Assembly: GCA_028712475.1 (NCBI GenBank)
Contig: JAQTQB010000002.1
Coordinates: 372,001-436,000, forward strand
Direction: 5' to 3'
From: Verrucomicrobiales bacterium
GTDB lineage: Bacteria; Verrucomicrobiota; Verrucomicrobiia; Limisphaerales; UBA11358
Length of the DNA stretch: 64,000 nucleotides
The position numbers and the translations under genes are program-made. The first letter of the stretch is position 1; each line of letters begins with the position of its first letter. The notes beneath the pieces were generated by a model, which searched no databases, was not told the DNA's origin, and worked only from the letters and a program-made list of their open reading frames with translations. Shown here in pieces: positions 13,494 through 24,513 of the stretch.

Positions 13494-14978
13494 CTACGAA
13501 CGGCTCCAATTCTTCGCCCGCGTCAGCGCACGTGTCCAGCCGGAAAGAAGTTGCTCGCGCGTAGCTGGCTTTGCTTTCGGCGTGAAGCGGCGGTCGGCTT
13601 CCCAATGGGCGGCGATTTCACGCTGGTCTTTCCAGAACCCAACGCCCAGTCCCGCGAGATACGCCGCGCCGAGCGACGTGGTTTCGGTCACGCGCGGACG
13701 CACGACGGGCACGCCAAGCAGGTCGGCCTGGAATTGCATGAGCAGATTGTTTGCGCACGCGCCGCCGTCCACACGGAGTTCCTTGAGTTTGATGCCGGCG
13801 TCATTTTCCATCACATGCAGCACGTCGGCGACTTGATAGGCGATGCCTTCGAGCGCGGCGCGGGCGATGTGGGCGCGCATCGTGCCGCGCGTGAGGCCGA
13901 TGATGAGGCCGCGCGCATAAGCATCCCAATGCGGCGCACCCAGCCCGGCAAAAGCCGGCACGAGATACACGCCGCCGTTGTCCGGCACCTGTGCCGCGAG
14001 CGCCTCGATTTCGCCGGAAGACTTGATGATGCCCAGCCCGTCACGCAGCCATTGCACGACGGCACCGGCGATGAAGATGCTGCCTTCGAGCGCATATTCC
14101 GTGCGGTCGCCAATCCGCCACGCGACGGTGGTGAGCAGATTATTTTTCGACGCGATGGGTTTGCCACCGGTGTGCATGAGCAGGAAACAGCCGGTGCCGT
14201 AGGTGTTCTTGACCATGCCGGGCCGGGTGCAGACCTGGCCGAACAACGCGGCCTGCTGGTCGCCCGCGATGCCAGCAATGGGAATCGCGCCACCGAGCAG
14301 ATTGGTCTCGCCATAAACTTCGCTGGACGAACGCACGTCCGGCAAGATTGCGCGCGGCACGTCGAAGAGCCTCAAGAGTTCATCGTCCCACGCGCCGGTG
14401 TGGATGTTGAAAAGCATCGTGCGCGAAGCGTTGCTGGCGTCGGTGATGTGGCAGCGCCCGTTGGTGAGATTCCATACGAGCCATGAATCAATCGTGCCGA
14501 AGGCGAGTTCGCCAGCCAATGCGCGCTTTTTTGCACCAGGAACATGGTTCAAAATCCATTGCAGTTTTGTGGCGGAAAAATAGGCGTCAATCACGAGGCC
14601 CGTCTTGCGGCGGATCAGCGGCGCAAGACTACGCGCCTTGAGCCGGTCGCACGCCGGTGAAGTGCGGCGATCCTGCCAGACGATGGCGTTGCAAATCGGT
14701 TTTCCGGTGGCGCGATCCCACACAACGGCCGTCTCGCGCTGGTTCGTGATGCCGATGGCGGCGATGTCTTTGGCGGTGAGACCGGCTTTGCGCAACGCCT
14801 GCCGGGCGACGGTCAATTGCGTGGCCCAGATTTCCTGCGCGTTGTGTTCCACCCGGCCCGGCTGCGGAAAAATCTGCCGGAACTCCCGTTGCGCCGCCGA
14901 CACGATGCGTCCGCCGTGGTCGAACACGATGGCGCGCGAACTGGTCGTGCCCTGATCGAGTGCCAGGATGTGTTTCAC
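13494..14978 (-). CDS. glpK: Glycerol kinase
   Basis: A 494-residue FGGY kinase that phosphorylates glycerol to sn-glycerol 3-phosphate. It shows the opening [16 protein letters not shown], substrate and ATP motifs including [40 protein letters not shown] and [10 protein letters not shown], and the C-terminal [11 protein letters not shown] block. I chose GTG 14978 because the family begins directly there; an ATG at 15017 adds 13 unrelated residues reaching into Rhs DNA. No glpF or glpD gene is adjacent. The 43-bp gap to the divergent Rhs fragment leaves little room for a native promoter. Confidence 0.95.
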
Positions 14979-15021
14979 GCAAGGAGTTTGTCCCGCCCCG
15001 CTGCGCAATGCAATCACGCGA

Positions 15022-16605
15022 ATGTTTGCGTGTTACGACGCCATCGGGCAGTTGAAGACGGCGCAGGGCTGGGAAGCCGACGGCACCACGCCGCGCTTGC
15101 ACGAGCAGTTCGGCTATGCGTATGATGCGGCGTGGAATTTGAGCCAGCGGACCAACAACATCCTGGTGCAAACCTTCAATGTGAACACCTTGAACGAGCT
15201 GACGACTTCGACGAACCGGGGCAAGTTCACCGTGGCCGGCACGGCGACCGAACCCAAGGGCGGCTACAATTCTTGGGGTGATCCCGTGGGCGTGACGAAC
15301 GTGACGGTCAACACGTCCAACGCGGCGGTGTATCTGGACGGGACGTTTGCCGCCACGAACTTCACCCTCGCCAACGGGAACAATACGTTCAAAGCCATTG
15401 CCAAGGACACCTACGCGCGGAAGGACACGAACAGCCTCACCGTCAACCTGCCCGCGACGAACAATTTCAGCTACGACCTCAACGGGAACCTGCGGACGAA
15501 CAACACGCGGATTTATGATTTTGACGATGAGAACCAGCTCATCCGCGTGACGGAGCCGGGCGCGTGGAAGAGCGAATATGCGTATGACGGGCTGCTGCGG
15601 CGGAGAATTTCCAGGGATTATGCGTGGACGGGTAGTTGGGTGAAGACCAATGAAGTGCGCTATGTGTATGACGTGAACCTCGTCATTCAGGAAAGGGACG
15701 CGAACAATCTGCCGTTGGTGACTTATACAAGGGGGAATGACTTGAGCGGTGGATTGCAGGATGCGGGCGGAATAGGCGGACTCTTGGCCAGAACCGATAA
15801 CGGGCTGATGGTTGCCGGTGATTCCCATGCCCATGCCTACTACTTCTGCGATGGCAACGGGAACATCACGGCGATGGTCTATACGAATGGCGCGCTGGCG
15901 GCGCAATACAGTTACGATCCGTTTGGGAATATCCTCTCGATGAGCGGGCCGCTGGCGAGTGCCAACACCTACCGCTTCTCCAGCAAGGAGTGGAATGAGC
16001 GTCCCGGAACCTACTACTATGGGCGGAGATTCTATGATCCGGGTTTGCAGCGGTGGCTGAATCGGGATCCGATTCAGGAAGAAGGAGGCCTGAATTTATA
16101 CGCGTTTATTTCCAATGTCTCCGTCAACTCGGTGGATGCTTTTGGGCTTCAATGTTATCTATCCCCGCCTCTTCCTGACTGGCTAAAAATGAAACCACTT
16201 TCTTACGATCAACCCATACTGCGTCCAAGCGACATCTGGCCGCCAAAAACATCGCCTTTGTTTCCCACAGCACCGGTCACTGGAAAGAATGCCATTAAAA
16301 AAATGATGTCCGGCTTTGGGGCGTTAGCCAAGGAGGAGTTCGGAGATACCGCCAGCCAGTGGGCTAATAATGCTGCGCAAAATCTGCTTGGTCTTGATTT
16401 AAATAGTGTTGGTGAGAATTTGGGATTGGGGGATAGGTCTAATCATAGCAAAAATGGGTTTGGTTTGGATGGCTTTGGGGTGGAATACAAGTTCTCGGCA
16501 TATACAAGCCTCAGTATTAGTTATAAGCCGGATGTCGGACTAAACAATCGCAACTTACAAATAGGAAATGGCGGTTGTGTGATCCAATTCAATCATAGCT
16601 ACTAG
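15022..16605 (+). CDS. 5'-truncated Rhs protein with variable C-terminal tip
   Basis: A 527-residue C-terminal piece of an Rhs/YD-repeat protein. Residues about 1-370 hold YD-type repeats ([46 protein letters not shown]) and the Rhs core ([18 protein letters not shown], then NLYAF, then SVDAFG). From about residue 376 the sequence changes to an unrelated, more AT-rich tip (16148-16605) that I do not recognise. Full Rhs proteins are far longer and carry N-terminal export or shell regions missing here. Upstream DNA is glpK, so the gene is truncated, and whether it is expressed or exported is doubtful. The next gene is a candidate immunity gene. Confidence 0.85.
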
Positions 16606-16614
16606 GTGATGAGT

Positions 16615-17403
16615 ATGAAAACAACTGTTACCACAATTATATTATTTTTAGGTCTTGCGTTTTTCGCTTGTGTGGATGGTATAAGTGCCGACCTGACACA
16701 AACTGATATAGCTCAAGTGAAAAGTGAGTTGCAGGCCTTCGAAAAAGGCCAATTAACCCTGGAAGAAGTAACTGAGCTTGGGGGTGAAGCGTGGGGACGT
16801 AAACTTGTGGCCTATTATGAAACACACACCAATGATGTGACAACAAAGATGGAGCTCCCAGTCAGCCGTTGTTACGGCGCGATGGGAAAATACTCCGAAG
16901 CTGTAAAGTGCGCACAAAAATATGTTAATGTGTTCTCAAACGATTGGCGTGGCTGGAGAATTATCGGCAGTGCTAGTCTTGACATGCAAAACCTCAACGT
17001 TGCGGTGGACGCTTATGTGAATGCAGTGCGGCTGGGTGATGACGGCAGTTGTGCCCCGCTTGCCTTCACAGCTATGAAAACAGACCGTCTAGATGTAGTT
17101 AGAGACATTGTCCCTCGTTTGCTCGCTTTGAAGAATTCTAAACCGACTCGGTATGTCAAACCGCTTGATATAGTGACCGCTCTTGTGCTTTATTCACTGA
17201 GGTCGAACCAAGGGGACATTTTTGTAAAAGCACTCAGCGGCGTAGGTGTCGGCGATATCTTGTCCAGAAGTGATCTGGAATTTCTTGTCAGGCAAGGCTG
17301 TGAACAGTTCAAAGGCAAAGACATTGACAAGATTCGCGAGAAAATGGAGGCGGCCTCTGGAAACAATTCCAATTCAAGTAATACTAACAGACCGCCACCT
17401 TGA
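16615..17403 (+). CDS. Exported helical protein, candidate immunity partner of the Rhs tip
   Basis: A 262-residue protein with a signal peptide (residues 1 to about 23) and a helical, TPR-like body (CYGAMGKYSEAVKCAQKYVN followed by a second similar helical pair), ending in an Asn/Ser/Pro-rich tail. I chose ATG 16615 because AGGTGA lies six bases upstream. It starts 9 nt after the Rhs tip and is followed by duplicated Rhs core DNA, the layout of a tip-immunity cassette. AT content matches the tip rather than the housekeeping genes. Function as an immunity protein is inferred from position only. I recognise no family. Confidence 0.6.
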   Translation: MKTTVTTIILFLGLAFFACVDGISADLTQTDIAQVKSELQAFEKGQLTLEEVTELGGEAWGRKLVAYYETHTNDVTTKMELPVSRCYGAMGKYSEAVKCAQKYVNVFSNDWRGWRIIGSASLDMQNLNVAVDAYVNAVRLGDDGSCAPLAFTAMKTDRLDVVRDIVPRLLALKNSKPTRYVKPLDIVTALVLYSLRSNQGDIFVKALSGVGVGDILSRSDLEFLVRQGCEQFKGKDIDKIREKMEAASGNNSNSSNTNRPPP

Positions 17404-17422
17404 AGATTTTCCCACAACCGCC

Positions 17423-17725
17423 GGGCGTGACGAACGTGACGGTCAACACGTCCAATGCGGCGGTGTATCTGGACGGGACATTTGCCGCCACCAACTTCAC
17501 CCTCGCCAACGGAACAACACCTTCACGGCCATTGCCAAGGACACCTACGCGCGGAAGGACACGAACAGCCTCACCGTTAACCTGCCCGCGACAAACAACT
17601 TCTCATACGACCTCAACGGGAACCTGCGGACGAACAACACGCGGATTTACGATTTTGACGATGAGAACCAGCTCATCCGCGTGACCGAGCCGGGCGCGTG
17701 GAAGAGCGAATATGTGTATGACGGG
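17423..17725 (+). pseudogene. Orphan duplicated Rhs core fragment
   Basis: A near-identical copy of 15288-15591 from the intact Rhs gene. It contains one missing G (GCCAACGGAACA instead of GCCAACGGGAACA, near 17512), which shifts the frame, so it cannot be translated as Rhs throughout. It ends three bases before the start codon of the uracil-DNA glycosylase gene. Such orphan core pieces downstream of a tip-immunity pair are expected from tip replacement by recombination. Confidence 0.9.
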
Positions 17726-17727
17726 AA

Positions 17728-18456
17728 ATGTTGAACACCAGCAAACAATTGATCGCCGCCGCGCGGGAGCTTTCCAAACAAGTGGAGCGGCTGAAGTTCG
17801 CGCCGCCGGTCGCGCACGTCTATAATCCGCTCACCTACGCCTGGCAGGCGCACGAGGATTATCTGCGCCGGTTTGGCGGCAGCCGGAAGCGCGTGGTTTT
17901 TCTGGGCATGAATCCCGGCCCGTTCGGCATGGCGCAGACGGGTGTTCCTTTCGGCGAAATCGCGGCGGCGCGTGATTGGATGAAGATTCGCGCGGAAATC
18001 GGCCGCCCGGCGGTGGAACATCCCAAGCGCCCGATTCACGGTTTTGATTGTCCACGTTCGGAGGTCAGCGGACGGCGTTTCTGGAAACTGTTCGCGGGGC
18101 GTTTTGGTTCGCCGGAAAAATCCTTCGCCGGACATTTTACCGCCAATTATTGTCCGCTCGCCTTCCTGGCGGCCAGCGGGGCGAACCTGACGCCCAACAA
18201 ACTGCCCAAATCAGAGCGCGAAAGTTTGTTCGCCGTCTGCGACGAGCATCTGCGCCGCGTGCTGGAAATTCTCAAGCCGGAATGGCTCATCGGCATCGGC
18301 GCTTTCGCCAGGGAACGCGGCGAACTGGTGGCGACCGGCAAAAAAATCCGTGTCGGCCAGATATTGCATCCCAGCCCGGCCAGCCCGAAAGCGAACCGCC
18401 ACGATTGGGGAGTGACGGCGACGCAGGAACTCGTGGCGCTGGGTGTCTGGAAATAA
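17728..18456 (+). CDS. SMUG-type uracil-DNA glycosylase
   Basis: A 242-residue protein of the SMUG family of uracil-DNA glycosylases, which remove uracil and related bases to start base excision repair. Motif 1 is GMNPGPFGMAQTGVPFGE at about residues 60-77, with the catalytic Asn in GMNPGPFGM. Motif 2 is HPSPASPKANR near residue 214. The middle contains NYCPLAFL. The ATG at 17728 lies only 3 nt past the duplicated Rhs fragment, so the native promoter has probably been displaced and any transcription must come from new upstream DNA. Confidence 0.88.
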   Translation: MLNTSKQLIAAARELSKQVERLKFAPPVAHVYNPLTYAWQAHEDYLRRFGGSRKRVVFLGMNPGPFGMAQTGVPFGEIAAARDWMKIRAEIGRPAVEHPKRPIHGFDCPRSEVSGRRFWKLFAGRFGSPEKSFAGHFTANYCPLAFLAASGANLTPNKLPKSERESLFAVCDEHLRRVLEILKPEWLIGIGAFARERGELVATGKKIRVGQILHPSPASPKANRHDWGVTATQELVALGVWK

Positions 18457-18804: not shown

Positions 18805-19287
18805 TTACGCCTCTTTTTTGCGGAAGAATTGTCCAGTTTCGGCGACGTTCAGGATGGACAAATCAAGCCCCATTCCGGGCGCGCGTTCCTGGGCGATTTC
18901 GAGCTGGCACGCGATGCGTTTGACGGCAGGGGCGGCGAAATATTTCACGACACCCACGCCGGTCTGCGACTTGAAGATCACGACGAGCATGCAGTTGTCG
19001 TCAACATTGACGACGAAAAGGCTGAATTTTTCCCCCTGCTGGTAGATGCTGTTGAAGTTCGTCTCATTCACCAGGCCGGCGATGGTCTGGTTGGCCATGA
19101 ACGCGCCGGAAGACAGCGCGGCGATGGTGGTCAGATCGAAGTCACGCGAATCGCCCTGATGCGTGATGAGAAAGCCGCCCTTGTCAATGACCAGCGCCGA
19201 CGTGGCATCCGCCGAGGCAATAAACTCCCGGAGCGCTTCGTCGAGCCGCTGGATGTCGTCTTCGATGAGTTGTGGCAAAGTGGCCAT
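18805..19287 (-). CDS. Roadblock/LC7 domain protein (MglB-like)
   Basis: A 160-residue protein with a roadblock/LC7 domain at about residues 10-120: ATSALVIDKGGFLITHQG, then LAALSSGAFMANQTIA, then SIYQQGEKFSLFVVNVDDN and LVVIFKSQTGVGVVKYF. Members dimerise and act as GTPase-activating partners of MglA-like small GTPases. The MglA-type GTPase gene lies one base upstream (19289), so the two are a pair. A C-terminal extension of about 35 residues is absent from minimal MglB proteins. It is the last gene of a three-gene minus-strand operon. Confidence 0.88.
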   Translation of the reverse strand: MATLPQLIEDDIQRLDEALREFIASADATSALVIDKGGFLITHQGDSRDFDLTTIAALSSGAFMANQTIAGLVNETNFNSIYQQGEKFSLFVVNVDDNCMLVVIFKSQTGVGVVKYFAAPAVKRIACQLEIAQERAPGMGLDLSILNVAETGQFFRKKEA

Positions 19288-19288
19288 G

Positions 19289-19903
19289 TCATGCGTATTG
19301 CGGGACGTTTTGGTTGATGTATTTCTGGAGCAACATGCGGGTGATCATGTTCAGCGTCTCGAACACGCCTTCGCATTTGTGCGCCGTCCCAGTGAACGAC
19401 GGCACATGCATTTCGCGGTTGTTCAGCAGGTAATCCATGTATTCGACCGGCGCGGCGTTCGGCAGATCGCGCTTGTTGTATTGGAGGACGTAGGGAATTT
19501 CACCGATGTCGAGCTTCAGCGTCTTCAAGTTGTCCATCAAGTTTTGAAATGCCTCGACGTTCTCCGGCATTTTTTCGTATTGCGAATCGGCGACGAACAC
19601 GATGCCGTCCACGCCGCGCAACACGAGCTGCCGCGTGGTGTTGTAGATCACCTGGCCGGGCACGGTGTAAAGCTGGAACTTGGTCTTGAAGCCTTTGATC
19701 GTCATCGCCTCGATCGGCAAAAAGTCGAAGAAGAGCGTGCGGTCGGAACTCGTCGCAAGCGAAACGAGCTTGCCCTTGTTGCCGGCGTTGGTCTGGACGT
19801 GGTCGTGGACCTGCACGAGATTCGTCGTCTTGCCGCCCATTGCCGGGCCGTAATAGACGATTTTTACCTGCAGTTCCTTGGTCGCTTGGTTGATGATGGC
19901 CAT
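19289..19903 (-). CDS. MglA-like small GTPase
   Basis: A 204-residue Ras-like GTPase of the bacterial MglA family. The P-loop GPAMGGKTT is at 19-27, the switch II TVPGQ at 80-84 (MglA uses this form instead of the Ras DxxGQ), and the base-recognition NKRD at 143-146. In Myxococcus, MglA sets cell polarity and motility direction with MglB as GAP. The role here is unknown, since no gliding or pilus gene is in the window. The gene lies between a long roadblock-containing protein and a short roadblock protein in one operon. Confidence 0.93.
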   Translation of the reverse strand: MAIINQATKELQVKIVYYGPAMGGKTTNLVQVHDHVQTNAGNKGKLVSLATSSDRTLFFDFLPIEAMTIKGFKTKFQLYTVPGQVIYNTTRQLVLRGVDGIVFVADSQYEKMPENVEAFQNLMDNLKTLKLDIGEIPYVLQYNKRDLPNAAPVEYMDYLLNNREMHVPSFTGTAHKCEGVFETLNMITRMLLQKYINQNVPQYA

Positions 19904-19909
19904 AATAGT

Positions 19910-21601
19910 TTACATTTTTTTGCGGTCGAGAGACACGGCCAACGCGGCCAGTTGTGCGCCCGGCAAGGTTTCATTCGCCCGCCCGAACGCGGCGAAATAG
20001 ACGGCGTTCACGCGGAAAATCTTCCACGGCACGTTGCCGACGGTGAAGCTCAAATTGTTCATGTCGCCCATGCGCAATTCGCGAGAGCATTGGTTCACGC
20101 GGGCGAAAATCTGCGGAATAAAAGCCGCGAGCGTCTCGCCGTTCTGATCCGCCGGAATCTGGTTGGCGACCATGAGGCCGTCGGGCAGGGCGATGATCGC
20201 GCCCGCCACGGCCGGCAGTTCCATGGCGCGGAAAACAACCTCGCTCGGCGTGGCGGCGCGCGACAGAAAATCCGTGCCTCCCTTGCGCCTGAATTCTGAA
20301 TCTGATGTTTGCGAGTCGTCGTCGCGGGTGAAAAAATTCGTGTCCGGCGGCGGCGCAGCAACACTGGCCGCCGATGGCATTGGTGCCAGCGGAGCTGATG
20401 GCGTGGGCGGCAGCGGAGCCGCTTCAGACTGCGGGAAACCAAAGAACAGATTGGGGATTTCCTCCGAAACGGCGGCTTTTTTCTGCATATTTGCCGACCC
20501 GTTTTTCTGGGTAAAGAACAACGGCGCAAGCACCTTCAACGGCAACTCCAGTTCGAGGCCGTCATGGGCGGAGGTCGCCACCGCCGCCGACTTGATCCAT
20601 GAACGCAGATAGCGCCAGGAGAAAATTACGCGGCCACGTTTCAACGCCGGTTCAACCAGATGGATTGGCAGGGCGACCTTGGCGCCCATCAGATCCAGCA
20701 GTTCAATTTCCTGCCGCAACGCTTCCGGCCAGCCTTCGGCCAGCTCGCCCAGTGGCGCAGAAATCGTCGGCTGCGACTGCTCCGGCAAAGCCGCCATCGG
20801 AGGAACTGGTGTGGCGGATGCAGGCGGAACAGGCGCAGCTGAAATGATGGGGGCCTGGGGTGCAACGCTGGCGTGGCCGTTGGTGGCCGGCAGGTTCCAG
20901 CGCGGCGTAAATCCCGGCGGCGGCGGCGCGACGGGCGGCGGCTGCACGGACGCTTCCGGGACCGGCGCGAACCGCGAGAGCGGAATGGCGGCGGGCGGCG
21001 GCGTGGCGGGCGGCGCTTTCATCTGCTTGGTGGAAATGGTCAGCCCCTGCCCGCCTGCGCTGAACGGGCTGGCGATATCGTCCGAAAGCTCGGCCTGTTG
21101 TTTTTGCGCGGAGCGGCGTGCCAGCAGCGCAGGATTGATCTGTGCCAGAATCTGGTTCAAGGGCAGCGTCACCGGTTTGGCATCGCATTCACCGGCGAAA
21201 CTGGCAAACACGCCGGGCGCGAGCTGGCGCAATTCGCCGAAAGTGATTTTGACCGAGCCGGTCGCCAGTTGCGCGAGGACTTTTTCCACCGGCAGCGAAA
21301 TCATCATGCCCATGGTGTTCGCACCCACGATTTTGGCGCGCAAATCCAGCGGCAGCGCCGTCAGGATGGGGGTCACGGGCAGCTGGATTTCGTCGGGACT
21401 GGCCGGAGCGGGCGGCGGCGGGGCGGAAACGGGGGCGGGGGCGGGCGACACCGGTTGCCGTAAAGTGGCGGGTGACTGAACCGCAGCCGTCCGTGTGGCG
21501 GAGACAGGGCGTGACGTTATTGGTGCGACCGGCTCGTCATCATCGAAACGACGCAACAAACCCCGGAGGAACCCCGCAAATTTTAATCTCACGACACTCA
21601 T
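19910..21601 (-). CDS. Long Pro-rich protein with duplicated module and C-terminal roadblock-like domain
   Basis: A 563-residue cytoplasmic protein. An N-terminal linker rich in Pro and Ala is followed by two related modules, at about 72-165 and 285-365. Each module has a conserved Leu-Pro strand, then GxVxF and LR (VKITFGELRQ; RVIFSWRYLR), then a second Leu-Pro-Leu strand. Pro/Ala-rich linkers separate them. The last 110 residues (VAGAIIALPDGLMVANQI to YFAAFGRANETLP) look like a roadblock/LC7 domain. It begins the operon with MglA 6 nt downstream, so it is likely a scaffold or regulator of that GTPase. I know no characterised homologue of the modules. Confidence 0.75.
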   Translation of the reverse strand: MSVVRLKFAGFLRGLLRRFDDDEPVAPITSRPVSATRTAAVQSPATLRQPVSPAPAPVSAPPPPAPASPDEIQLPVTPILTALPLDLRAKIVGANTMGMMISLPVEKVLAQLATGSVKITFGELRQLAPGVFASFAGECDAKPVTLPLNQILAQINPALLARRSAQKQQAELSDDIASPFSAGGQGLTISTKQMKAPPATPPPAAIPLSRFAPVPEASVQPPPVAPPPPGFTPRWNLPATNGHASVAPQAPIISAAPVPPASATPVPPMAALPEQSQPTISAPLGELAEGWPEALRQEIELLDLMGAKVALPIHLVEPALKRGRVIFSWRYLRSWIKSAAVATSAHDGLELELPLKVLAPLFFTQKNGSANMQKKAAVSEEIPNLFFGFPQSEAAPLPPTPSAPLAPMPSAASVAAPPPDTNFFTRDDDSQTSDSEFRRKGGTDFLSRAATPSEVVFRAMELPAVAGAIIALPDGLMVANQIPADQNGETLAAFIPQIFARVNQCSRELRMGDMNNLSFTVGNVPWKIFRVNAVYFAAFGRANETLPGAQLAALAVSLDRKKM

Positions 21602-21783
21602 GTTTGGTTGATGACCAGCCTGCTCGGACGGTCTGCCGTGGTTTTAGCAAATACCGCGCCACGGTTAATTTTTTCCCTGATTCAGCCGGAGAGTTTTTTT
21701 TTTGGCGGATTGGGACGCAAAACTTGTCTCATCATGGGACTGGCGGACCGGGCGGCTGTCCAGATTGAGGGATAAAATTTAGT

Positions 21784-21789
21784 TATAAT
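21784..21789 (+). promoter_or_regulatory. Possible -10 box for the receiver-DUF4388 operon
   Basis: TATAAT lies 98 nt before the start of the response-regulator gene, in the 285-bp region between the two divergent signalling operons. No good -35 hexamer sits at the usual distance; TTGAGG is only 13 nt upstream. The rest of this region holds a run of Ts near 21691 and no gene. Confidence 0.35.
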
Positions 21790-21886
21790 GCGGGTTTGCA
21801 TTGGGAACAGCGATTGCTGTCGGAAGAGAAATGATTTTCGCACTTGTATTTATAACGATTCGGCGGTAGCCGTTGACGCCATTGGA

Positions 21887-22957
21887 ATGGATGCGCCACA
21901 TAAAATCCTGATTTTGGACGACGACACCGACTGGCTCGAGCTGTGCCGTGAAATCTTCACGCATCTGCCGAGCGGCCCGGAAATCCGCACTGCGTCCTCC
22001 AGTCCGCGCGCGCTGGCGATGCTGGAATCTGAACCGTTCCGGCTGTTGATCTGCGATCTGAAAATGCCGCGCATGGATGGATTGCAGGTGCTCTCAATCG
22101 TCCGCCGCCGGTTTCCCCAGTTGCGCACGGTCGTTTTGAGCGGGCTGGAAGATGAGGAATTCCGCTCCCGCGCCTACGCGCTGGGCGTGGATTTGTTCTG
22201 GCTCAAAACCGACATGCAGCGGAACTCCAAAATGTTCATGGAGTGTCTGGAATCACTTTTGGGGCGCGATGCCGACGGCGGCTTTCGCGGCATCCAGAGC
22301 AAAAGCCTCATGGACATCATCCAGATGGAATCGCTCTCGCGCAATTCCACCGTCCTGCGGATCACCCGCGGGCCGCTCGTGGCGAAACTGTGGCTGCAGG
22401 ACGGCGAAGTGATTGACGCCGAAGCCGAGGGCGCGTGCGGCGAAGTGGCGTTCCGCCGGATTCTCGCGTGGAAATCCGGCACGTTTGAAAATCTGCCGCC
22501 CGAACCGGACCGCCCGCGCACCATCACCAAACCCATCAACGCCCTGCTGCTCGAGTCCGCGCAGACCATGGATGAAAATGCGAACCCTTCCAGCGAGACC
22601 CAGTTCATTGACGCCAGCCACCGCAAGACGATCTGGAAACTTTCCCTGCTCATGCGCGAAGGCGCGGAATTTGTCGTCGCCGTCCCGCCTGACGGCATGG
22701 GCGAACCCGAAGCGCTCGGCACACAATCCACCGAGCAGCTCGCCGCCTGGACCCGGCACGCGGCGAAAATCGCCAAAAAGCTTGGCGAGAAGATTGAAGC
22801 CGGCCCGCTCTCGCACATCGCCGGGCACAACCTGGAAAAACAGTTCATGGTTCTGCCGCATGGCGAAAAAACCTTTCTCGTCGGCTGGCCGCCCGGCGCC
22901 GCCGCCAATAACCTGCTCGAACAGAGCAAAAAACTCACCGCCTCATGGGATTCCTAA
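21887..22957 (+). CDS. Receiver domain + DUF4388 response regulator
   Basis: A 356-residue protein. Residues 1-120 form a receiver domain with acidic pocket Asp11-Asp13, phospho-acceptor Asp57 (LLICDLKMPRMDG) and Lys107. Residues about 130-235 are a DUF4388 (PATAN-like) domain: IIQMESLSRNSTVLRI and LWLQDGEVIDAEA. A C-terminal domain of about 110 residues has no match I know. DUF4388 proteins often pair with MglA/roadblock systems. I chose the ATG at 21887 since the receiver begins there. It opens an operon divergent from the MglA operon. Confidence 0.87.
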   Translation: MDAPHKILILDDDTDWLELCREIFTHLPSGPEIRTASSSPRALAMLESEPFRLLICDLKMPRMDGLQVLSIVRRRFPQLRTVVLSGLEDEEFRSRAYALGVDLFWLKTDMQRNSKMFMECLESLLGRDADGGFRGIQSKSLMDIIQMESLSRNSTVLRITRGPLVAKLWLQDGEVIDAEAEGACGEVAFRRILAWKSGTFENLPPEPDRPRTITKPINALLLESAQTMDENANPSSETQFIDASHRKTIWKLSLLMREGAEFVVAVPPDGMGEPEALGTQSTEQLAAWTRHAAKIAKKLGEKIEAGPLSHIAGHNLEKQFMVLPHGEKTFLVGWPPGAAANNLLEQSKKLTASWDS

Positions 22958-23259
22958 AAGAACTTTTACAAGGGTTCCGTTCGAGCGCCGCCATCCAGCA
23001 GCTGCCGGCCGGCAGCATGACCGTGGATCGCAACGGACACGTCGTCGTCACCACCGTTTCCTCGGCGTATCCCAAGGACTTGCTCGAAGAGATCGGCGGC
23101 GACGTTGTGTCCTTGTTCAGCGAAGCCCGCGCCGCGCAGATGACCCTGGCCGAAGTCAGCTTCCATTTCGGCAGCCTCCGCATCACCGCCCGCGAACTGC
23201 GCAGCGGCGCCATCATTTTCCTTTCCCCGCAGACCAAACACTCACCCATGAAAAATTAA
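22945..23259 (+). CDS. Short roadblock-like protein
   Basis: A 104-residue protein starting 13 nt inside the end of the receiver gene, so translation is probably coupled. Its sequence (SMTVDRNGHVVVTTVSSAYP, then VVSLFSEARAAQMTLAEVSF, then ITARELRSGAIIFLSP) resembles a compact roadblock/LC7 domain. It may dimerise with the other roadblock proteins or bind the MglA GTPase. Assignment is by eye only. The last few residues are polar and lie outside the fold. Confidence 0.65.
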   Translation: MGFLKELLQGFRSSAAIQQLPAGSMTVDRNGHVVVTTVSSAYPKDLLEEIGGDVVSLFSEARAAQMTLAEVSFHFGSLRITARELRSGAIIFLSPQTKHSPMKN

Positions 23260-23266
23260 AACGATT

Positions 23267-23659
23267 ATGACAGCCAAAGAACTCAACCAACTGGTCACCC
23301 AGATCGAAACTCACATCGAGTGCTGGAAACAATTCAACCACTTCATCACCGTCGCCCGCGCCAAAAAATTCGGGCCGGCGGAGGAAAACCATTTCCTCGA
23401 GCTCAAAAGCGTCATCGCGCAAGAGCTGGAAGTGATCTTCGCCCGCGTTGAAGCCGTCTCGCCTTCGCGCGACGAAATCCTCGGCCTCGTCGGCAACGCC
23501 CCGTCATTGCGCTTTTTGAGCGAGATGAACGAGGGCGCCCTGCGCAACCTCGAAAGCCAGTGGCACAGGGTTTACATCGGCTGGCACTCGATTCTGGGCC
23601 AGCTCAAGGTGAAGCAGACCACCGAGGAAACCAAAACTTTCTGGGGCAAAAAGAAGTGA
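23267..23659 (+). CDS. Helical hypothetical protein of the MglA/roadblock locus
   Basis: A 130-residue all-helical soluble protein with no family I recognise. It starts 8 nt after the short roadblock gene and ends the operon. Two amphipathic helices (about 5-30 and 42-65) and a second pair near the C-terminus suggest a coiled or four-helix fold. Position alone links it to the signalling block. The C-terminus is lysine-rich. Confidence 0.7.
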   Translation: MTAKELNQLVTQIETHIECWKQFNHFITVARAKKFGPAEENHFLELKSVIAQELEVIFARVEAVSPSRDEILGLVGNAPSLRFLSEMNEGALRNLESQWHRVYIGWHSILGQLKVKQTTEETKTFWGKKK

Positions 23660-23721: not shown

Positions 23722-24513
23722 ATGCCTGACTGGATTGTCGCCATCATTTTGGGGTTGATTGAAGGAATCACCGAGTTCATCCCCGTCTCCTCCACCGGCC
23801 ATCTGCTTATTGCCGAGCATTGGCTGCCACGCCAGAGCGACCTCTTCAACGTCGTCATCCAATGCGGCGCGGTCATCGCCGTCCTGCCGCTCTTCCCGCA
23901 GCGCCTCTATAAATTTGTCTTTGAACTCGGCGACAAGGAAACGCAAGACTACCTCTTGAAAATCCTCGTCGCCTTCGCCATCACCGGTGCGGGCGGAGTG
24001 GCCCTTGACCACTTCAACGTCAAATTGCCGGAAGCACTCGCGCCCGTCGCATGGGCTTTGCTCATCGGCGGCATCGCGTTTCTCGCGGTGGAATTTTTTC
24101 TCCGCGGCAAAAAATTAAACAGTGAAATCACCTGGACAATCGTCCTCGCCGTTGGCCTCGGCCAGCTCGTTGCCGCGATTTTTCCCGGCACTTCCCGCTC
24201 CGGCTCGACAATCTTATTTTCCCTGCTGCTCGGCTTGAGCCGCCCTGCCGCGACGGAATTCTCCTTTCTCGTCGGCATCCCGACGATGCTGGCGGCGGGC
24301 GCGCTGAAAATTTTCAGGGCGCTGCATCATCCCAGCCCGCTCGCGCCGCACGAAAATTGGGGAATGCTCCTGCTCGCCACCGTCGTGGCCGCCGTCGTCT
24401 CCTTCATCGCCGTGAAATGGCTGCTGCGCTATGTGCAGACACACACGTTCAACGCCTTCGGCTGGTATCGAATTGCGCTTGCCGTGGTGATTTTTATTTT
24501 CCTGATGAAATAA
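23722..24513 (+). CDS. uppP: Undecaprenyl-diphosphate phosphatase
   Basis: A 263-residue polytopic membrane enzyme (BacA/UppP) that recycles undecaprenyl pyrophosphate to the monophosphate carrier for peptidoglycan and O-antigen synthesis. It has the two signature motifs: GLIEGITEFIPVSSTGHL near residues 11-28 (catalytic Glu and His) and PGTSRSGSTI near residue 156. About eight transmembrane helices are predicted by eye. Confidence 0.95.
   Translation: MPDWIVAIILGLIEGITEFIPVSSTGHLLIAEHWLPRQSDLFNVVIQCGAVIAVLPLFPQRLYKFVFELGDKETQDYLLKILVAFAITGAGGVALDHFNVKLPEALAPVAWALLIGGIAFLAVEFFLRGKKLNSEITWTIVLAVGLGQLVAAIFPGTSRSGSTILFSLLLGLSRPAATEFSFLVGIPTMLAAGALKIFRALHHPSPLAPHENWGMLLLATVVAAVVSFIAVKWLLRYVQTHTFNAFGWYRIALAVVIFIFLMK

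Follow-up and report, generated by a model that had tools for sequence, protein, structure and literature searches.

What is known of the small GTPase MglA comes mainly from Myxococcus, Thermus and Bdellovibrio. As described in passages of the Myxococcus literature, MglB and RomY together form the GTPase-activating protein (GAP) complex (PMC9481161), RomR, MglC and MglB set up a positive feedback, which MglA-GTP breaks (PMC10329633), the regulators of mglA are not encoded beside it (PMC4316618), and MglA acts on pili via SgmX and PilB (PMC11580455). In Synechocystis, PATAN receivers bind PilB, according to passages of two reports (PMC10519157, PMC7690835). An mglB-mglA-like pair is noted for Methylacidiphilum infernorum in a passage of PMC4476040, and a passage of a 2014 survey (PMC4316618) lists only Group 5 MglA for the Verrucomicrobia. 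Described here is a block of six genes, conserved across the order Limisphaerales ("subdivision 3"), that encodes an MglA-type GTPase, an MglB-type partner, further roadblock proteins and a receiver-DUF4388 protein. It was studied in a Verrucomicrobiales bacterium, in a stretch of 64,000 nucleotides (assembly GCA_028712475.1, 3.4 Mb, contig JAQTQB010000002.1; G000:C17:372001-436000), referred to below as the window.

Six open reading frames (ORFs) lie at positions 18805-23659 of the window, C-B-A on the minus strand and D-E-F, divergently, on the plus strand. All six frames are present where a sequence-only reading of the window had placed six genes in two divergent operons. Spacing is 1 bp between B and A and 6 bp between C and B; D and E overlap by 13 bp, E and F are 7 bp apart, and a further 62 bp separate F from the gene uppP. 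The divergent gap between C and D measures 285 bp. The mechanical ORF of D starts at 21788; the ATG at 21887 is adopted here because orthologues are about 340-365 amino acids (aa) long. The features of the block are as follows.

18805 to 19287, minus strand: A, MglB-type roadblock protein, 160 aa, presumed GAP of B (Robl_LC7 1.4e-10; MglB structures 1.2e-13)
19289 to 19903, minus strand: B, MglA-type small GTPase, Group 1 by its sequence, 204 aa (M. xanthus MglA 3.6e-62; Pfam Arf/Ras)
19910 to 21601, minus strand: C, 563 aa, two predicted copies of an unnamed domain and a C-terminal roadblock, with disordered linkers (model confidence, hhalign, orthologues)
19913 to 20260, minus strand: roadblock domain of C, residues 448-563 (fold search of the model)
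20492 to 20767, minus strand: second repeat-domain copy of C, residues about 279-370 (model, hhalign)
21122 to 21394, minus strand: first repeat-domain copy of C, residues about 70-160 (model, hhalign)
21602 to 21886, no strand: divergent intergenic region between C and D, presumed promoters (from position)
21887 to 22957, plus strand: D, receiver-DUF4388 protein, 356 aa, with a probable roadblock-like C-terminal part (Pfam, residue conservation, profile)
22637 to 22882, plus strand, approximate: probable roadblock-like domain of D (profile of 57 orthologues)
22945 to 23259, plus strand: E, short protein of predicted roadblock fold, 104 aa (model and fold search)
23267 to 23659, plus strand: F, 130 aa, undescribed family, probably helical (conservation; no family match)

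Conservation was followed in two overlapping sets of loci. One comprises 34 loci chosen by their place in the order; the other comprises the best 80 of the 138 loci that encode F among 149 pattern matches. The F loci come mostly from metagenome assemblies labelled Verrucomicrobia subdivision 3, Limisphaerales or Pedosphaera, and a few labels (Akkermansia, Methylacidimicrobium) look like mislabelled bins. All six genes are found in 29 of the 34 loci, in the same order in every one of the 29, and in 55 of the 80 F loci, where the span is 4.5-5.6 kb. Scattering of the genes in relatives, which the sequence-only reading had named as fatal to its proposal, was looked for and is not what these loci contain: the same divergent order recurs in 55 of 55. 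Most of the other 25 F loci end at a contig edge; in L142, L196, L208 and L212 there is room, yet C-B-A does not lie beside D-E-F.

Among 59 related genomes, the present one included, the GTPase occurs in 41 at an identity of at least 78%, a conservation that excludes chance open frames, and F occurs in 46. Both are present in 41 genomes, the GTPase alone in none, F alone in five and neither in 13 (Fisher test, 2e-9, without correction for kinship). In three of the F-only genomes (G003, G008, G015) the contig ends inside C. In a fourth, G025 (L176:577-3343), B and C are lost and a piece of A is left beside a UDG-like gene, while D, E and F stay and diverge (identity 58% for D, 49% for E). The fifth, G044, is 57% complete; its D is broken and its F is interrupted by stop codons. 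C-B-A and D-E-F lie apart in G040 and G046, with both halves retained. Completeness is 90% or more in 12 of the 13 genomes without the block, so real losses of it are likely.

The sequence-only reading had called B an MglA-type GTPase, and the comparisons bear this out, with A as the MglB partner. Besides its match to M. xanthus MglA, B matches 3t12, the entry for MglA of T. thermophilus, at 1.1e-57. Arg55-Thr56, an arginine beside the G2 threonine, and TVPGQ in G3 are present in 69 of 69 orthologues of the order and likewise in all 30 GTPases taken from other families of the phylum; NKxD is kept in the same 69, its third position being variable. According to a passage of PMC4316618, Group 1 MglA proteins have an intrinsic arginine finger, TVPGQ, fewer than 240 aa and an MglB within four genes. 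With 204 aa and MglB-type A as the next gene, B is by its sequence a Group 1 MglA under these definitions. A matches MglB structure chains over residues 7-140, and scores 1.1e-19 (71 bits) against the NCBIfam model of Thermus-type MglB, under the 200-bit cut-off of that model; its status as a roadblock protein, judged from sequence, is firm. The core of the block thus appears to be an Mgl-type switch, and stimulation of GTP hydrolysis by B through A is presumed from the family.

The model of C has three confident parts, at about residues 70-160, 279-370 and 448-563, joined by proline-rich linkers of low confidence. The first and second represent a single domain present twice (hhalign 98.3%, 1.9e-14); a Pfam scan gives no match for it, and a fold search with the whole of C, whose list is filled by roadblock matches, gives it no separate match. 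The third is a roadblock. C itself scores 0.0068 against Robl_LC7, under the curated Pfam cut-off, and 19 of 20 C orthologues match the family, the best at 7.7e-08. In the model, residues about 447-563 align with roadblock structures at Z 15-17, including 9jue_B (Z 17.3, root-mean-square deviation (rmsd) 2.3, 116 residues) and the MglB chain 6hjm_E (Z 16.0, rmsd 2.8, 117 residues). From sequence and model together, the roadblock assignment of C is firm.

D carries the phospho-input that had been proposed for the block: Pfam finds a receiver (1.1e-17) and DUF4388 (5.9e-15), the latter presumably the Pfam counterpart of PATAN. Asp57 and Lys107 are present in 83 of 83 orthologues, and the receiver residues overall are kept in 82-83 of the 83. 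A profile of the last 124 residues from 57 orthologues has as its top PDB match the roadblock protein 7f8f_A (E 0.0039). This part of D is therefore a probable roadblock-like domain, two of the three tests of it being weak. Three roadblock-type proteins, A, C and E, had been recognised before, as they are here; the probable fourth domain, at the end of D, had been overlooked. The block had also been called self-contained, which is not supported. No histidine kinase was found by Pfam among nine scanned proteins of the block and its flanks, so the phosphate donor of D must be encoded elsewhere. A Pfam scan of the block gave no DNA-binding domain.

The two short proteins of the plus strand are less easily placed. 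For E there is no credible Pfam match (Robl_LC7 in 1 of 18 orthologues, E 0.17), and the best PDB match of its profile is a roadblock protein at 0.024. Its model has a core predicted local distance difference test score (pLDDT) above 90 and shows the beta-beta-alpha-beta-beta-beta roadblock fold minus the flanking helices; roadblock chains fill most of the upper rows of the fold search, with MglB 6h5b_C aligning at Z 9.6 (rmsd 3.2, 79 residues). A relationship of E to A, C or DUF4388 is not significant by hhalign. Since neither hhalign nor the sequence searches reach significance, the predicted roadblock fold of E rests on the model. Profiles of E and C match archaeal roadblock proteins; MglC is missing from the list of matches, which is no proof. 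F has a mean column identity of 68% over 18 orthologues. It matches no Pfam or NCBIfam family, and its PDB search gave chance-level rows only. By hhalign, F is not related to A, E or DUF4388, and a phage origin was dropped after a scan of viral contigs, in which 63 stretches matched the pattern and none was confirmed as a relative. The N-terminus of E reads M-x-hydrophobic-L in 79 of 85 distinct proteins, and at least two basic residues stand in the last eight of F in 84 of 86; from sequence, these patterns could be membrane or partner contacts.

Across 36 aligned intergenic regions of widely varying length, no DNA motif is conserved in the gap between C and D, and the idea of one was dropped.

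A wider survey took in 387 genomes of the phylum, 46 of which have the GTPase. F is found in three with a first profile and in five with a widened one, the fifth being marginal at 0.007. The two clear F genomes outside the order, G071 and G224, belong to one other family and both have MglA; F there follows directly on a DUF4388 protein with a decayed-looking receiver, far from mglA (L221:750-1920, L269:1471-3004). Of 43 outside-order loci 33 were mapped, the other ten being left out because a simple gene caller gave no GTPase frame; a further locus, L138, was likewise left unmapped. A protein with the C repeat lies near the GTPase in 18 of the 33, and MglB in 21. The first-repeat profile of C recovers 18 proteins, each in a different locus and 0-1 genes from the GTPase, and the roadblock profile of C recovers 14. 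MglA, MglB and C-like proteins thus often stay together outside the order, and the C-like partner reaches across the phylum. Two of the C-like representatives, at L106 and L118, additionally carry a helix-hairpin-helix. In other families, the neighbours of mglA also include DUF4388 proteins that carry FHA or combine MshEN with a receiver (L098, L120, L121); L120:4443-6266 and L121:5207-6880 encode MshEN-receiver-DUF4388 proteins, the MshEN match at L121 being under the curated cut-off.

The gene set, its conservation and co-retention, the domain content and the intact catalytic and phospho-acceptor residues are observed, and on them a mechanism can be proposed. The reading favoured here, with moderate confidence, is an MglA switch with MglB as its GAP, a lineage-specific roadblock-rich platform, phosphorylated D as the input and pili as the probable output. 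B would cycle between GTP and GDP, hydrolysing GTP through its own arginine finger, as its conserved residues suggest, and A, as an MglB-type protein, would accelerate that hydrolysis. C may serve as scaffold or effector, reaching B or A through roadblock contacts. D would be phosphorylated by the kinase encoded elsewhere and relay the signal, by way of its DUF4388 and roadblock-like parts, to E and F, and these could tune the position or nucleotide state of B. The output would be the place and timing of type IV pilus assembly or retraction, in analogy to Myxococcus MglA and to PATAN-PilB in Synechocystis; taken alone, this step is tentative, at somewhat under an even chance. A bolder form, which we regard as rather unlikely, would make the block a bacterial counterpart of Ragulator, in which one MglA sits on a hetero-oligomeric platform of four roadblocks (A, the ends of C and D, and E), its state is set by phosphorylation of D, and F is a new adaptor or exchange factor. 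If true, the GTPase would be switched by a phosphosignal through roadblock-roadblock contacts, a richer wiring than the RomR/MglC/MglB loop of Myxococcus.

Pilus genes are available to such an output. The PilT family is matched in 59 of the 59 relatives, 58 of them above the curated cut-off. The present genome has eight T2SSE-family genes, of which none is in the window and three are on the same contig about 200 kb away. There they form part of a pilC-pilB-pilT-pilB-like cluster in which PilT is above its cut-off and the PilB-like and PilC-like matches are below theirs. The earlier statement that no pilus genes are nearby thus holds for the pilus-type ATPases within the window. The description of the bacterium as non-gliding is not supported, and since relatives of PilB, PilT and PilC are encoded, a non-motile bacterium cannot be assumed. 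Further DUF4388 genes are more frequent where the block is present, in 30 of the 46 genomes with it and 2 of the 13 without it (p 0.003, without correction for kinship, and counting one match per block-bearing genome as D). At L242:62-7825 a receiver-DUF4388 gene lies upstream of ribH and a pilB-pilT-pilB-pilC-like cluster, and here the PilB-like ATPase, too, has MshEN at its head.

Several observations count against the proposed mechanism or its output. The roadblock-like part of D is weak by Pfam (1 of 57 orthologues, at 0.067) and weak by hhalign against the C roadblock (4.6%). No pilus gene lies inside the block. Genomes that lack the block have PilT just as those that carry it do, so the block is not required for pili. 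The number of T2SSE ATPases is higher in block-bearing than in block-free genomes of the genus (11.9 versus 8.4, p 0.003) but not in other families of the order (10.4 versus 10.0, p 0.72), and was dropped as a correlate of the block. Beside the further DUF4388 genes, 13 of 20 fetched loci have a HEAT-repeat gene and not pilus genes. Finally, the steady neighbour of D-E-F is the following gene, at most 2.5 kb from F in 33 of the 46 F-bearing genomes.

23722 to 24513, plus strand: uppP, undecaprenyl-diphosphatase, probable co-transcribed neighbour (BacA 1.4e-68; 62 bp after F)

On the strength of this neighbour the switch might steer wall or envelope growth (insertion site, shape, division) in place of pili, with uppP sharing the job through lipid-carrier recycling. 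Besides its closeness in those 33 genomes, uppP trails D-E-F where the block is split, in G040 and G046. Two very different types of UppP, at about 60-80% or about 27% identity to that of the window, occupy the block site in different genomes, as if replaced in place, and the three genomes without detected uppP are all block-free. However, uppP is near-universal and mostly single-copy (56 of 59 genomes) and is kept in 10 of the 13 block-free genomes, so that co-transcription may be all there is to the link; in 13 of the 46 genomes F was not found near uppP, in some through contig breaks. An envelope role is accordingly judged unlikely.

The split genomes also bear on whether the block is one system. 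C-B-A could be the GTPase switch and D-E-F a separate DUF4388 unit with another target, the two standing together by chance or through shared regulation. The halves lie apart in G040 and G046, the DUF4388-F pair is far from mglA in G071 and G224, and G025 retains D-E-F after the loss of B and C. Yet the GTPase is never found without F in the 59 genomes, the split genomes keep both halves, and the diverged D and E of G025 and the broken D and F of G044 look as if D-E-F decays once C-B-A is gone; two independent units therefore seem improbable. A receiver protein in the block, and the use of MglA relatives in actinobacterial conservons (from a passage of PMC4316618), might instead suggest membrane or gene-expression signalling, with the GTPase as the output of a two-component pathway and not a spatial cue. 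A Pfam scan shows neither a histidine kinase nor a DNA-binding domain in the block, and B is of Group 1 (TVPGQ) and not Group 2, which makes this very unlikely. An MglA switch on a roadblock-rich platform, with D as its input, thus stays the preferred reading.

Other loci and neighbours drew attention in passing. In the same genus a second conserved set consists of a HEAT-repeat protein, a receiver-DUF4388 protein and a protein of about 112-132 aa, roadblock-like by eye, and adjoins NAD, biotin and pantothenate genes (L244:2502-5253, L246:7484-10256, L251:6860-9654 and like loci). The short protein (cluster c6) beside other DUF4388 genes is not a relative of E by profile, though the layout is alike by eye. 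In the present genome a second DUF4388 gene, FHA-receiver-DUF4388, lies among riboflavin-synthesis and cytochrome-oxidase genes (L240:7665-8993). Elsewhere in the window, at 14968-17734, is an RHS/YD-repeat-like gene; by eye, a fragment of its middle part is repeated at about 17400-17734, following a gene for a small protein, in the manner of a displaced tip cassette.

In comparison with described systems, B and A are homologous to MglA and MglB of Myxococcus xanthus and Thermus thermophilus; the catalytic residues are shared, and the two genes are likewise neighbours. The difference here is the addition of C, D, E and F as one block in one bacterial order. D, the only receiver of the block, has DUF4388 and is not RomR-like in layout, RomR elsewhere in the genome not having been sought; neither C nor E can be recognised as MglC. 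Within the tests made, the regulators in the block are not those of Myxococcus. Through the presumed equivalence of DUF4388 and PATAN, D also resembles the PATAN-receiver pilus regulators PixE and PixG of cyanobacteria in joining a receiver to DUF4388. In passages of PMC7690835 and PMC10519157 these act together with a chemotaxis-like system, and no action via MglA is described. What the block shares with the M. xanthus RomR/MglC/MglB module, as presented in a passage of PMC10329633, is one receiver and several roadblocks round one MglA. PATAN genes near Group 1 and Group 5 mglA are noted as occasional in a passage of PMC4316618, whereas here the association is the rule in one order and includes C, E and F. 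Actinobacterial conservons (Group 2) have the histidine kinase CvnA beside the pair and GTPGQ, whereas the block has TVPGQ and no kinase among the nine proteins scanned. In the openly licensed PubMed Central literature nothing was found on MglA together with DUF4388 or under MglA and "Verrucomicrobiota", and MglA with roadblock and "Verrucomicrobia" does appear.

The block places a whole candidate set of MglA regulators in one conserved unit, in a phylum where polarity has received little study, and puts a Group 1 MglA in the Verrucomicrobia, for which the 2014 survey passage (PMC4316618) lists only Group 5. It also brings directly testable families without an assigned role: the C repeat domain, E and F. 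The likeness to eukaryotic Ragulator/Rag, described in a passage of PMC10329633, lies in several roadblock domains round a small GTPase, roadblock-roadblock binding being only proposed here; if the roadblock-rich platform is real, it would offer a bacterial case for roadblock layers setting the state of a GTPase. Set against what is known, the block combines an MglA switch of a known type with an unusual number of roadblocks and some new proteins.

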